From Streptomyces sp. AM 4-1-1 (GTDB lineage Bacteria; Actinomycetota; Actinomycetes; Streptomycetales; Streptomycetaceae), in the NCBI RefSeq assembly GCF_029167625.1, contig NZ_CP119145.1:2976001-3040000 (forward strand): DNA of 64,000 bases. The letters run 5' to 3'. Shown here piece by piece: positions 10,774 to 15,453 of the stretch. How positions within the stretch are numbered: position 1 is the stretch's first letter; each line of letters begins with the position of its first letter. The notes beneath the pieces were generated by a model. The model searched no databases. It saw nothing but the letters and a program-made list of their open reading frames with translations, and was not told the origin of the DNA. A program made the translations under genes and the position numbers.

Positions 10774-11445
10774 TCAGCCCGCGCCGCCGCCCGCCCTGAC
10801 CAGGCCCGACTCGTACGCGAGGACGACGACCTGCACCCGGTCGCGCAGTCGCAGCTTGGTCAGGATGCGGCCCACATGGGTCTTCACCGTCGCCTCCGAC
10901 AGCACCAGCCGAGCCGCGATCTCGCCGTTGGACAGGCCCTGCGCCACCAGCAGCATCACCTCGCGCTCACGGTCGGTCAGCTTGTCGACGTGCTCGGGCG
11001 GTCGGTCCCTGCCGCTCGGCAGCATCGGCGAGAAGCGGTCGAGCAGCCGACGTGTGGTGGACGGCGCGACGACCGCGTCACCGCTGTGCACGGAGCGGAT
11101 CGCGGCGAGCAGTTCGGCGGGCGGCACGTCCTTGAGCATGAAGCCGCTGGCCCCCGCCTTCAGCCCGGAGAACGCGTACTCGTCCAGGTCGAACGTGGTC
11201 AGGATGAGCACCCTCGGCGCGTCCGGCGCCGCGCAGATGCGGCGGGTGGCCTCCACCCCGTCCAGCCTCGGCATCCGTACGTCCATCAGCACCACGTCGA
11301 CCGCCGTGGACCGCAGGACCTCGATCGCCTCCGCGCCGTCCCCCGCCTCGGCGACGACCTCCATGTCCGGCTGGGCGGCGAGCACCATCCGGAAGCCGGT
11401 ACGCAACAGCATCTGGTCGTCGACGAGCATCACGCGGATCGCCAT
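10774..11445 (-). CDS. NarL/LuxR-family response regulator
   Basis: 223 residues from the ATG at 11445 (an in-frame extension further upstream has no receiver features). Receiver domain: acidic pocket VDD at 8-10, phospho-acceptor Asp55 in LMDVRMP, and conserved Thr and Lys in ILTTFD and MLKDVP. A LuxR-type HTH follows at about 155-218 (LTDREREVMLLVAQGLSNGEIA). It pairs with the histidine kinase gene located immediately upstream on the same strand. The HK-RR gap of 234 bp is longer than usual and contains a 14-bp tandem repeat. Target genes unknown. Confidence 0.95.
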   Translation of the reverse strand: MAIRVMLVDDQMLLRTGFRMVLAAQPDMEVVAEAGDGAEAIEVLRSTAVDVVLMDVRMPRLDGVEATRRICAAPDAPRVLILTTFDLDEYAFSGLKAGASGFMLKDVPPAELLAAIRSVHSGDAVVAPSTTRRLLDRFSPMLPSGRDRPPEHVDKLTDREREVMLLVAQGLSNGEIAARLVLSEATVKTHVGRILTKLRLRDRVQVVVLAYESGLVRAGGGAG

Positions 11446-11600
11446 GAAGGGTCCTGTCTCCTGTGTTCCTTGCGCTGTCGGATGATGATCGGTGATGCCG
11501 GGAGCCCGGGGGAACCCGTCCCCGCCCAGTGTGCCTCCACAGGCCGCCCCACGGCCCACACGGCCCACACGGCCTCCGCGACCGGTGGCCGCACAGGCCG

Positions 11601-11670
11601 CCTCGGTACGCCGTCCTCGGTACGCGGTCCTCGGTACGCGGTCCTCGGTACGCGGTCCGGTGCACGCCGT
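11601..11670. repeat. 14-bp tandem repeat between histidine kinase and response regulator
   Basis: Four consecutive units of CCTCGGTACGCGGT (the first with one change) occupy 11601-11656, followed by a diverged fifth unit. The array starts nine bases after the kinase stop codon and lies in the non-coding gap before the response regulator. Further copies of related ACACGGCCC repeats occur at 11550-11575. Confidence 0.85.
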
Positions 11671-11679
11671 GCACGCGCC

Positions 11680-12882
11680 TCAGTGCGCCGACTTCAGCGG
11701 CAGCAGCGCGCTGATCCGGAAGCCGCCACCCGGCCGGGGTCCGGTGTCCAGCGTGCCGCCGACCATGCCGACCCGCTCCCGCATCCCGATCAGGCCGTGG
11801 CCCGCGCCGTCGGCGCCGCCGTCCTCGTACAACTCGTGCGCCGCGCCCCGGCCGTCGTCCTCGACGAGCAGCCCGAGACCGTCGTCGAAGTAGACGAGGC
11901 GCACGCTGGCCCCGGCCTCCGGGCCGCCGTGCTTGCGGGTGTTGGTCAGGGCCTCCTGCACGATGCGGTACGCGGTCAGCTCGACCCCGCTCGGCAGCGG
12001 GCGGGGGGTGCCCTCGATCGTGAAGCTCACCACCAGGCCGGTCTGCCTGACCTGTTCGACCAGGTCCTCGATCTGTCCGACGTCCGGCTGCGGCACGTAC
12101 TCCCCGCTCTCCGGGGCGTCGCCGGTCCGCAGCACCCCGAGCAGCCGACGCATCTCGGCGAGCGCCTGCCGGCCGGTCCCGGAAATCGTCTCCAGGGCCT
12201 GCCTGGCCTGATCGGGCGCCGTGTCCATCACATAGGCCGCGCCGTCCGCCTGGACCACCATCACCGAGACGTTGTGGGCGACGACGTCATGGAGTTCGCG
12301 GGCGATCCTGGCGCGCTCGGCGGCCACCGCGACCTTCGACTGCGCCTCCCGCTCCCGCTCCAGCCGGGCCGCGCGCTCCTCCAGCTGGGCGAAGTAGGCC
12401 CGCCTGGTCCGCACGGAGTCGCCGAGCACCCAGGCGAGCACGAAGGGGACGGTCAGCATGACCGTCACGAACGTCGTCTGGAGCCAGTTCTCCGTCGTGT
12501 CGTCCGGCCATCTCAGGCCGGCGAGCGTGGCCGCGCTCAACGACGCGACCAGCGCGAACCGGGAGGCCCAGCGCGCCCCGACGGCCGCCACGGTGTAGAC
12601 GATCACCAGCATCGCGAAGTCGGCGACACCGCTGGGCACCCCCAGGACCAGTTGGGCGACGCCGATGGCGGCGGTCAGCACCAGCATCCTCTCCGGTGCC
12701 CGCCTGCGCAGCGCGACGACCAGACAGAGGCCGATGACGACGGGGACGGAGAAGACGTTCTGCGTCACCGAGCCGGCAGGCTCCGCCACGAGGCTCACGC
12801 CGGACACCCCGAGCAGGACGACGGCCCAGAAGGTGTCGACGCCCGTCGGGTGTCTGCGGAGAAAATCGTAGAGGCGCTGCAC
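11680..12882 (-). CDS. Two-component sensor histidine kinase (HisKA_3 / NarL-type)
   Basis: 400 residues. The N-terminal half has several hydrophobic membrane segments (residues about 15-155) with very short loops, so it probably senses the membrane rather than a large extracellular ligand. The dimerisation/phospho-acceptor region reads ARELHDVVAHNVSVM, with the phosphorylated His in the first part. An HATPase domain follows, with the N-box TNTRKHGG and a G-box GHGLIGMRERV. It is co-directional with the downstream response regulator. The membrane topology resembles DesK-like kinases of actinomycetes. Confidence 0.93.
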   Translation of the reverse strand: MQRLYDFLRRHPTGVDTFWAVVLLGVSGVSLVAEPAGSVTQNVFSVPVVIGLCLVVALRRRAPERMLVLTAAIGVAQLVLGVPSGVADFAMLVIVYTVAAVGARWASRFALVASLSAATLAGLRWPDDTTENWLQTTFVTVMLTVPFVLAWVLGDSVRTRRAYFAQLEERAARLEREREAQSKVAVAAERARIARELHDVVAHNVSVMVVQADGAAYVMDTAPDQARQALETISGTGRQALAEMRRLLGVLRTGDAPESGEYVPQPDVGQIEDLVEQVRQTGLVVSFTIEGTPRPLPSGVELTAYRIVQEALTNTRKHGGPEAGASVRLVYFDDGLGLLVEDDGRGAAHELYEDGGADGAGHGLIGMRERVGMVGGTLDTGPRPGGGFRISALLPLKSAH

Positions 12883-12978: not shown

Positions 12979-14226
12979 ATGACGGATGAGTGGCGTGGGT
13001 GGCAGGAGGCGGCCGAGACCGCGCTGTACGGCTACGGGGGAAGCGGAGGCCACGGGCACGGGGAAAGCGGAATCGGGGAGGCGCCGGATTCCATGCCGGG
13101 CTACCCGGGCCGTGCGGATCACTCGGACCCCTCGGACCGTCCGGACCGTTTCCACCGCGCCGACCGCCCGGACCGCCCCGCCCCCGTCGGCGGTTTCTAT
13201 CGGCGTCCCGAAGGCCCCGCAGGCCACTTCCGTACCTCTGTTCACGCGTCTCCGCTGTTCGCCGCCGCCGTCGCCCGGCTGCTGGTCGGCACCGCGCGGG
13301 AACTCGGCACCGAGTCCGTCGATCTGGTGGACATCGGCGCCGGACGCGGAGAGCTGCTGACCGGGGTGCTCGCGGCACTGCCCGGAGTGATCGCGGCACT
13401 GCCCGGAAGCGGAACCGGCGGCGCGGGGCCGGCCGTTCGGGCGTACGCGGTGGAACGGGCCGCCCGCCCGCCCGGTCTCGACCCCCGGATCGAGTGGTGC
13501 GCCGAACCGCCGCGCGGGACGACCGGGCTGCTGTTCGCCAACGAATGGCTCGACAACGTACCGACCCCGGTCGCGGAGGCCGACCCGGACGGCGTCCCCC
13601 GGTACGTCCAGGTCCGCACGGCGGACGGGGCCGAACGGCTCGCGGCTCCGGTGACCGGCCCGGACGCGCAGTGGCTGGACCGGTGGTGGCCACTGGAGGA
13701 GCCCGGCGAACGCGCCGAGATCGGCCGCCCGCGCGACGAGGCGTGGACCGCCGCCGTCGGCACGCTCGACGCGGGGCTCGCGGTCGCGGTCGACTACGCG
13801 CATGTACGGGGCGGGCGCCCGCCGTTCGGGACGCTGACCGGGTTCCGGGAGGGGCGCGAGGTGCGGCCCGTACCGGACGGCGAGTGCGACCTCACCTCGC
13901 ACGTGGCGCTCGACGCCTGCGCGGCGGCGGCCCACGCCGCGTCGCGCGGGGACGGCGGGGCGTCCTCCGTACCGCCCGAGCTGCTGGACCAGCGGGAGGC
14001 GCTGCGGCGGCTCGGGGTCGACGGGCGCCGCCCGCCGCTGGCGCTGGCGTCCAGCGATCCGGCCGGTTATCTGCGGGCGCTCTCCGCCGCGGGCGAGGCG
14101 GCGGAGCTGACGGCGCGCGGTGGGCTGGGCGACTTCACCTGGCTGCTCCAGCGGGTTCCGGCGGCCGGGAGCGGGGCGGGGGGCCGGACCGCGGGGAACA
14201 CAGCCGGGGGATACTGGCTCGCATGA
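12979..14226 (+). CDS. SAM-dependent methyltransferase of the MidA/NDUFAF7 family
   Basis: 415 residues from ATG 12979. Conserved family features: [13 protein letters not shown], the SAM-binding glycine motif [11 protein letters not shown] (GAGRG at 120-124), [32 protein letters not shown] and CDLTSHV. This matches the DUF185/MidA family, whose human member NDUFAF7 symmetrically dimethylates an arginine of the complex I subunit NDUFS2 (established). Here the gene ends in a 4-bp ATGA overlap with a NuoD/NDUFS2 homologue, so that protein is the obvious substrate candidate (inference). Residues about 19-71 are a low-complexity insertion rich in Gly, Asp, Arg and Pro ([15 protein letters not shown]) between ALYG and the conserved GGFYRRPEG. 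Confidence 0.88.
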
Positions 14227-15365
14227 CGGAGACGACAGTCGGCATCGGCGGCGCGGCGGAAAGCACCGACATGGTGCTCAACATCGGGCCGCAGCACCCC
14301 TCCACGCACGGCGTGCTCCGGTTGCGGCTCGTCATCGACGGCGAGCGCATCCAGCAGGCCGAGCCCGTCATCGGTTACATGCACCGCGGCGCCGAGAAGC
14401 TGTTCGAGGCCCGCGACTACCGGCAGATCGTGATGCTCGCCAACCGCCACGACTGGCTGTCGGCGTTCTCCAACGAGCTGGGCGTCGTGATGGCCGTCGA
14501 GCGGATGCTCGGCATGGAGGTGCCGGAACGCGCGGTCTGGACGCGGACACTTCTCGCCGAGCTGAACCGGGTGCTGAACCACCTGATGTTCCTCGGTTCG
14601 TACCCGCTCGAACTGGGCGGGATCACCCCGGTGTTCTACGCCTTCCGGGAGCGCGAGGAGCTTCAGGCCGTGATGGAGGAGGTCTCCGGCGGCCGGATGC
14701 ACTACATGTTCAACCGGGTCGGCGGCCTCAAGGAGGACCTGCCGGCCGGCTGGCTCGGGCGGGCCCGCGAGGCGGTGGCCTCGGTCCGGTCCCGGATGGA
14801 CGTGTACGACCGGCTGGTGCTCGGCAACGAGATCTTCCGGGGCCGCACCCGGGGCGTCGGCGTGCTCTCCGCCGACGCGGTGCACGCGTACGGGGTGTCG
14901 GGGCCGATCGCCCGCGCCTCCGGGGTCGACTTCGATCTGCGGCGCGACGAGCCGTATCTCGCGTACGGGGAGCTTCAGGACACCCTCAAGGTCGTCACCC
15001 GCACCGAGGGGGACTGCCTGGCCCGCTTCGAATGCCTGCTGGAGCAGACGTACAACGCCCTGGACCTGGCGGACGCCTGTCTGGACCGGATGGCCGAGCT
15101 GGCCCCCGGGCCGATCAACCAGCGGCTGCCGAAGGTGTTGAAGGCCCCGGAGGGCCACACCTACGCCTGGACCGAGAACCCCCTCGGCATCAACGGCTAC
15201 TACCTGGTGTCCAAGGGCGAGAAGACCCCGTACCGGCTGAAGCTCCGCTCGGCGTCGTTCAACAACATCCAGGCACTCACCGAACTGCTGCCGGGCACGC
15301 TGGTCGCGGACATGGTGTCGATCCTCGGGTCGCTGTTCTTCGTGGTCGGCGACATCGACAAGTAG
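14223..15365 (+). CDS. nuoD2: NADH-quinone oxidoreductase subunit D paralogue (NuoD2)
   Basis: 380 residues, a 49-kDa/NuoD family protein lying outside any nuo operon. [42 protein letters not shown] and the C-terminal VVGDIDK are typical. By eye against Thermus Nqo4 (offset nine), the quinone-site His38 is kept (His29), but Tyr87 corresponds to Trp78 (NRHDWLSAF) and Asp139 to Glu130. The arginine methylated in mammalian NDUFS2, in the HRG motif, corresponds to Arg55. The main Streptomyces nuo operon, not in this window, should contain a standard NuoD. This protein may serve an alternative complex I form or a hydrogenase-like assembly. Translation is probably coupled to the upstream methyltransferase. 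Confidence 0.93.
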
Positions 15366-15392: not shown

Positions 15393-15453
15393 CTCACCGG
15401 ACTCACCGGACTCACCGGACTCACCGGACTCACCGGACTCACCGGACTCACCG
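15393..15453. repeat. 9-bp tandem repeat CTCACCGGA between convergent genes
   Basis: Six perfect copies of CTCACCGGA plus a partial seventh begin 28 bp after the nuoD2 stop codon. The end of the array provides the TCA that is the stop codon of the minus-strand VOC gene, so the array is in the 3' untranslated region of both genes. No stem-loop is formed by the unit itself. Confidence 0.9.

Follow-up and report, generated by a model that had tools for sequence, protein, structure and literature searches.

The window analyzed here is a stretch of 64,000 nucleotides from Streptomyces sp. AM 4-1-1 (contig NZ_CP119145.1, positions 2,976,001 to 3,040,000), and it contains an overlapping gene pair on its plus strand. 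The upstream gene (12979..14226, +) starts with an ATG and encodes a MidA/NDUFAF7-family SAM-dependent protein methyltransferase of 415 amino acids, denoted MT below; its start codon is backed by the N-terminus MTDEWRGW, which is found in orthologues as well. The downstream gene, nuoD2 (14223..15365, +), also starts with an ATG; its product of 380 amino acids, NuoD2, is a 49-kDa subunit and belongs to a second complex I. A sequence-only reading of this DNA had reported that the genes overlap by four nucleotides, and this was confirmed: the start codon of nuoD2 and the stop codon of the MT gene lie in the ATGA at 14223..14226 (+). A GGGGGA at 14206..14211 (+), within the last codons of MT, may be the ribosome-binding site of nuoD2, as judged from the sequence. 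Divergent from the MT gene, a sensor kinase (DUF7134, HisKA_3) and a LuxR-type response regulator are encoded on the minus strand (10774-12882). A tandem repeat of the 9-bp unit CTCACCGGA (6.8 perfect copies, 15393-15453) lies in the gap that separates nuoD2 from a glyoxalase-like gene in convergent orientation.

The assignment of MT to the MidA/NDUFAF7 family, which the sequence-only reading had proposed, was borne out by the Pfam profile, by a profile search of the PDB, and by the predicted fold. MT reached 58.6 bits against PF02636 (cut-off 23.3) and was the only match to this profile in the genome, whereas no NCBIfam model matched it. The single MT sequence found no match in the PDB. In contrast, a profile built from 50 MT relatives retrieved three PDB sequences, namely two bacterial COG1565/DUF185 proteins, 4f3n (1e-75) and 1zkd (1e-70), and the NDUFAF7 homologue of Dictyostelium, 5ztz (6e-54). 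The AlphaFold2 model of MT had a mean pLDDT of 84.8, with low confidence only at residues 21-62 and the last ten residues. With this model, the top six Foldseek matches were chains of the MidA family (1e-18 to 3e-15); the next match had an E-value of 2.5e-4, so that the MidA family was ahead of other methyltransferases by some eleven orders of magnitude. The family motifs GxGxG, NE..D..P, and DY are kept: G120, G122, G124, N188, E189, D192, P195, D272, and Y273 were invariant or at least 90% conserved in the 50 relatives, and all of these positions are also kept in 5ztz, except that the asparagine is replaced by glutamine. We assume that the conserved motif residues have catalytic roles. Taken together, every feature of the family that can be computed was found in MT, which is nevertheless a divergent member, with 22-33% identity to 38 alignment rows from outside its class. 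Proteobacterial MidA was reportedly treated by Shahul Hameed in 2018. Residues 19-71 of MT, approximately (13033-13191), form a low-complexity insertion after the motif ALYG, which was absent from the other Streptomyces rows of the alignment inspected (one row in two).

NuoD2 scored 239.4 bits against PF00346 (cut-off 24) and 378.9 against NCBIfam NF004739 (cut-off 360), and stayed under the cut-offs of TIGR01962 and NF008974. It aligns over the full length with solved 49-kDa subunits, although about 20-35 residues before KAPEGHTY are missing from it. A conserved histidine, His29 in HPSTHG (14307..14309, +), presumably takes part in quinone binding. It had been claimed that NuoD2 has the arginine that is methylated in mitochondria and that Thermus Nqo4 has a threonine instead, and the alignment confirmed both statements: Arg55 of NuoD2 (14385..14387, +), in YMHRGAEK, falls on the arginine of the HRG motif in the 49-kDa subunits of mitochondria and is the equivalent of NDUFS2 Arg85 and thus the predicted methylation site, whereas Thermus Nqo4 has GYLHTGFEK. 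NuoD proteins are denoted R-type or T-type below according to this residue, and a second letter gives the residue aligned with Trp78 of NuoD2 (R/W, R/Y, T/Y). His29 is conserved in 72 of 72 R-type NuoD ORFs.

The sequence-only reading had taken NuoD2 to be an orphan, a view that did not hold. Pfam searches found two NuoD genes in the genome, nuoD2 and nuoD1, the latter as part of a full cluster at 4.55 Mb. NuoB is likewise encoded twice, at positions 4.549 and 4.598 Mb. A second cluster, nuo2, 1.6 Mb away from nuoD2, has the order A2-B2-C2-H2-I2-J2-K2-L2-M2-N2 and lacks a D gene. NuoC2 matches PF00329; it consists of a NuoC domain (residues 33-153) followed by a Pro/Ala/Ser-rich tail of some 300 residues (L091:6282-7748). 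NuoN2 (L091:14232-15854) matches PF00361, and its homologues were found at the expected places in the two genomes that were checked (G016, G091). NuoB2 contains four cysteines, which we take to be the ligands of cluster N2. Matches to NuoF and NuoE were confined to cluster 1 in this genome, and no NuoG was seen in the nuo2 cluster as read. The subunits A, B, C, and H to N of nuo2, together with NuoD2 in trans, thus make up an 11-subunit complex I without E, F, and G of its own, and NuoD2 is the missing D of this cluster. The orphan status was rejected on the basis of D-less clusters in this genome and in six other split genomes that were read; this check left out family f11 (short contigs), G085, and the other genomes of family f12. 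A third NuoH-like gene accompanied by antiporter-like genes lies apart from both nuo clusters (L092, G000:C1:203000-221000), with no NuoD or NuoB match around it. A second nuo set of Streptomyces with nuoD2 apart and without nuoEFG genes has already been published (PMC3765725, PMC8388888).

Next, the arrangement of the two genes was compared in a sample of 149 genomes from the phylum and in a sample of 246 genomes from the class. In the class sample, MidA and NuoD2 genes were on one contig in 79 of 86 genomes, always within 11 kb. The MidA gene was upstream on the same strand in 61 cases, the genes were convergent in 15 cases, all from the genus Streptomyces, and divergent in three. Within the genus, among 22 evenly drawn genomes, 15 had the convergent arrangement, six had MidA upstream on the same strand, and one was divergent. 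In the phylum sample, 28 of 51 MidA genes were within 21 kb of an R-type NuoD gene, and the other 23 were on other contigs. Overlaps were counted at the 80 loci most like MT, a choice that is biased towards near relatives. A nuoD2 gene was present at 79 of them (72 on the same strand, seven on opposite strands), and the exact ATGA overlap was found at seven of the 79, or at 24 if any in-frame start codon at this place was allowed. Therefore, the overlap was rejected as a conserved signal, and the earlier idea that a single translational unit is the essence of the pair did not survive these counts and the predominance of convergent genes in the genus. The four nucleotide overlap is ordinary, one of many arrangements.

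In six genomes from three other families (G016, G069, G091, G102, G123, and G134) the order A-B-C-D-H-I-J-K-L-M-N-MidA was found, and in a seventh, G141, the contig starts in C and continues from D to MidA in the order of the six intact nuo2 clusters. The MidA gene can therefore close the nuo2 gene set. In seven split genomes (G000, which is the genome under study, G007, G023, G062, G107, G127, and G128), nuoD2 is beside the MidA gene and the D-less cluster is elsewhere. Thus, two genes of the nuo2 set, the fourth (D) and the last (MidA), are neighbors outside of the cluster in Streptomyces and in the families f12, f4/f5, and f11, which is hard to explain unless both need each other.

An intersubunit switch between the 49-kDa subunit and its NuoB-type partner has been described: Yarrowia has an arginine in NDUFS2 and a threonine in NDUFS7, whereas Thermus has a threonine in Nqo4 and an arginine in Nqo6, with the side chains occupying the same space by cluster N2 (PMC8042128). 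Our alignments confirmed the Thermus residues at both positions. Both states were found in the genome under study. In cluster 1, NuoD1 has GYLHTGIEK and NuoB1 has AGRVS, i.e. the Thr/Arg state of Thermus, whereas in the second set NuoD2 has GYMHRGAEK and NuoB2 has SGTVT, i.e. the mitochondrial Arg/Thr state. By these residues, NuoD2 fits NuoB2 and not NuoB1. Because the only other NuoD has the threonine, NuoD2 is the sole NuoD of the genome with the target arginine and the only possible NuoD substrate in the cell. The pairing was quantified with the fetched clusters of the phylum sample, which yielded 101 canonical D/B pairs, corresponding to 99 distinct genome-by-type cases. A T-type NuoD was paired with an arginine in NuoB 49 times and an R-type NuoD with a threonine 52 times, with no exception; all 49 T-type proteins were T/Y, and the R-type proteins were divided into 32 R/W and 20 R/Y. 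Three NuoD and three NuoB fragments or odd ORFs had been dropped before pairing, and a remote odd homologue (G034, a T/T NuoD with a threonine in NuoB) was set apart. In the seven split genomes, the D-less cluster had the threonine-type NuoB, as predicted.

A survey of actinobacteria for both genes, which the sequence-only reading had suggested, revealed an association that reaches far beyond the window. In the phylum sample, PF02636 was present in 49 of 149 genomes (six of 57 rows were dropped, four because they were further pieces of a gene already counted and two because they scored under the cut-off), and 48 of these 49 also encoded an R-type NuoD. The exception, G092, has two MidA genes (L279, L280) and a single, T-type NuoD, and no nuo gene was present in the 20 kb fetched around either MidA gene. 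In the class sample, MidA was found in 91 genomes (three of 94 rows were dropped, including one second piece of a gene and one below the cut-off) and the NuoD2 type, called by score and coverage, in 99 of 246. Both were present in 86 genomes, only MidA in five, only NuoD2 in 13, and neither in 142 (Fisher p 2.5e-45, with kinship ignored); without the genus Streptomyces the numbers were 64, 5, 13, and 142. Four of the five genomes with only MidA are 72-80% complete, and the fifth (G207) is 94% complete. The 13 genomes with only NuoD2 are an upper bound, because the MidA of G265 was missed by Pfam and found by the profile of MT relatives. In family f62, a hand count of the class sample gave both genes in nine of 21 genomes and neither in 12, without mixed cases, and among six f15 genomes that were read, G141 had the sole R/W NuoD and the sole MidA. 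These patterns suggest that MidA and the arginine-type NuoD move together.

The converse is not true, as at least 24 genomes of the phylum sample encode an R-type NuoD without a PF02636 match (21 of 69 that were read, and G024, G051, and G108). Such a match was absent from the f17 genomes (G013, G028, G042), the three f13 genomes just named, and five f22 R/Y genomes that were read, and the strict rule that an R-type NuoD needs MidA was rejected. Some of these absences may be misses of the Pfam profile, as for G265, whereas the absence from all three f17 genomes looks real; therefore, the arginine can work unmethylated in R-type genomes that lack MidA. Other phylum genomes with only a T-type NuoD may hide a second copy, as in the three f13 genomes; the second NuoD of G009 was a 434-bit match. 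In summary, MidA is rarely kept without an R-type NuoD, but R-type NuoDs also occur without it. When sorted by the residue after the arginine, MidA accompanied 38 of 44 HRG, nine of 13 HRA, two of five HRS, and none of nine HRC proteins. This distribution fits the preference for RG quoted in PMC3750175, but carries little weight, as the groups are families.

A further feature of NuoD2 is Trp78 (14454..14456, +), which occupies the position of the quinone-site tyrosine, Tyr87 in Thermus Nqo4 and Tyr144 in Yarrowia. This tyrosine is said to be deprotonated by ubiquinone (PMC8042128). The five PDB relatives of NuoD2 with inspected alignments have tyrosine here. The tryptophan was found in all 54 R/W NuoD ORFs of the phylum sample and in all 20 proteins of the NuoD2 type that were additionally read from the class sample. 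These 20, of which 19 are remote (39-54% identity), all combined it with the arginine. In a quick tree of 124 NuoD rows, calculated with both trait columns removed, a branch with an SH-aLRT of 99 split T/Y from R/W, and therefore a single origin of the tryptophan suffices; the R/Y proteins required two changes. Given this replacement, NuoD2 is predicted not to have a standard quinone site. A search of the literature, judged by titles, found no engineered tryptophan at this tyrosine. Trp78 is the most novel element of the locus and is unexplained by anything found.

In our view, MT and NuoD2 are most probably an assembly enzyme and its substrate for the second complex I, with Arg55 as the predicted site of methylation; by the computable signs, they are a real enzyme-substrate pair. 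Instead of a translational unit with an orphan NuoD, we would rather speak of a second complex I, split and of the Trp type, and its assembly enzyme. By analogy to NDUFAF7, which methylates Arg85 of NDUFS2 and has a role in assembly (PMC3829151, PMC9006661), MT would symmetrically dimethylate Arg55 of freshly synthesized NuoD2 before or during its docking on NuoB2. The methylated arginine would reach across to cluster N2, stabilize the D2-B2 interface, and tune N2. NuoD1 and NuoB1 would use the arginine in NuoB instead, and the two complexes I would thereby be kept from swapping subunits. The barrier formed by the switch and the methyl mark is our proposal and would follow from the geometry, as a mixed D-B pair would bring two arginines, or none, into one place. 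Several observations count against the explanation as a whole: R-type NuoDs without MidA in at least 24 phylum genomes, MidA without an R-type NuoD in G092 or without the NuoD2 type in five class genomes, the divergence of MT within its family, and the tryptophan at the quinone site.

The assembly role has to be weighed against other explanations. MT might methylate NuoD2 mainly to tune the Trp-type quinone/N2 site rather than to allow assembly. The constancy of Trp78 in the R/W proteins would agree with such a role, as would the presence of MidA in 43 of 51 R/W genomes compared with five of 16 that have R/Y proteins as their only R-type (hand sums, with G141 counted under R/W). However, MidA also occurs together with R/Y NuoDs (G002, G018, G029, G033, G043), and the MidA/NDUFAF7 enzymes known so far act on complexes of the Tyr type, so that we regard tuning as the main purpose as rather improbable. 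About half as probable is that MT acts on another protein or a nucleic acid and that its proximity to nuoD2 reflects shared regulation or inheritance. In its favor, a MidA of Wolbachia has been assayed in E. coli for methylation of DNA (PMC12455994), and G092 has two MidA genes, with no nuo gene in the 20 kb fetched around either, and only a T-type NuoD. Hitchhiking poorly explains a linkage that outlasts changes of orientation and gene order, inside and outside of nuo2, and MidA without its presumed partner is rare, i.e. one of 49 genomes in the phylum sample (no R-type NuoD) and five of 91 in the class sample (no NuoD2 type).

It is very improbable that the pair is a relic, with two decaying genes for a second complex that is not built. 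The identity of NuoD2 to the best 120 matches listed is 91-94%, NuoB2 retains its four putative N2-ligand cysteines, and other Streptomyces apparently express their nuo2 genes as a single operon (PMC3765725). Such decay is conceivable for G062, the nuo2 region of which (L235:7259-9960) has kept A, B, C, and I but has NuoH in three short pieces, and in which J to N were not found within the 20 kb that were fetched. D2 and MidA are retained at another place in this genome; its complex is either minimal or decaying.

Assembly of the second complex I with the help of MT thus remains our preferred explanation, and it would offer an experimental opportunity. The purpose of arginine methylation in complex I is hard to probe in mitochondria, since a lack of NDUFAF7 disturbs assembly and kills mice (PMC9006661). 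In the bacterium described here, two kinds of complex I are encoded for the same cell. The first has a methylatable arginine and the enzyme, the second a threonine and an arginine on the partner subunit, which could make the role of methylation testable. Loss of the MT gene should affect one complex only, the Thr-type complex would be the internal control, and the gene is probably dispensable because the canonical complex I remains. In addition, the NuoD2 clade lacks the quinone-site tyrosine that is central to coupling models and is therefore a natural test of these models. More tentatively, and with the balance against it, the nuo2 complex might represent a class of its own among the complexes I of actinobacteria. 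In this class, tryptophan would have taken the place of the quinone-binding and quinone-protonating tyrosine in a single event, a methylated arginine near N2 would take part in a different quinone or other-acceptor chemistry, and the methyl mark would serve as an identity tag against the canonical complex I.

Compared with known systems, the pair resembles mitochondrial NDUFAF7 and NDUFS2 in enzyme family and fold, in the subunit, and in the arginine (PMC3829151); in contrast, MT is bacterial, is linked to its substrate gene, and is confined to one of two complexes I, with the modification being predicted. Arginine dimethylation of a bacterial complex I is not new as such. Arg65 of Nqo4 of Paracoccus denitrificans carries symmetric dimethylarginine, whereas the E. 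coli counterpart is unmethylated (PMC3750175). MidA homologues are present in proteobacteria. Neither a Thr-type second NuoD nor a linkage to a nuo2 set was found described for Paracoccus or proteobacterial MidA in the parts of the literature consulted. The published Streptomyces nuo2 set has the same genes and the same split arrangement, with the detached nuoD2, but nuoC2, the methyltransferase, the Arg/Thr switch, and the tryptophan are not mentioned in the excerpts of these papers at hand (PMC3765725, PMC8388888). A link to MidA in Streptomyces or other actinobacteria was not found in print among the best-ranked matches in open-licence papers. The two Streptomyces papers suggested that NuoL2 and NuoM2 mix into complex I; the Arg/Thr switch speaks instead for a D2-B2 core of its own. 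The switch positions are the same two as in Thermus and Yarrowia (PMC8042128); unlike there, a single genome encodes both states, each in a complex of its own, and a methyltransferase gene is coupled to one of them.
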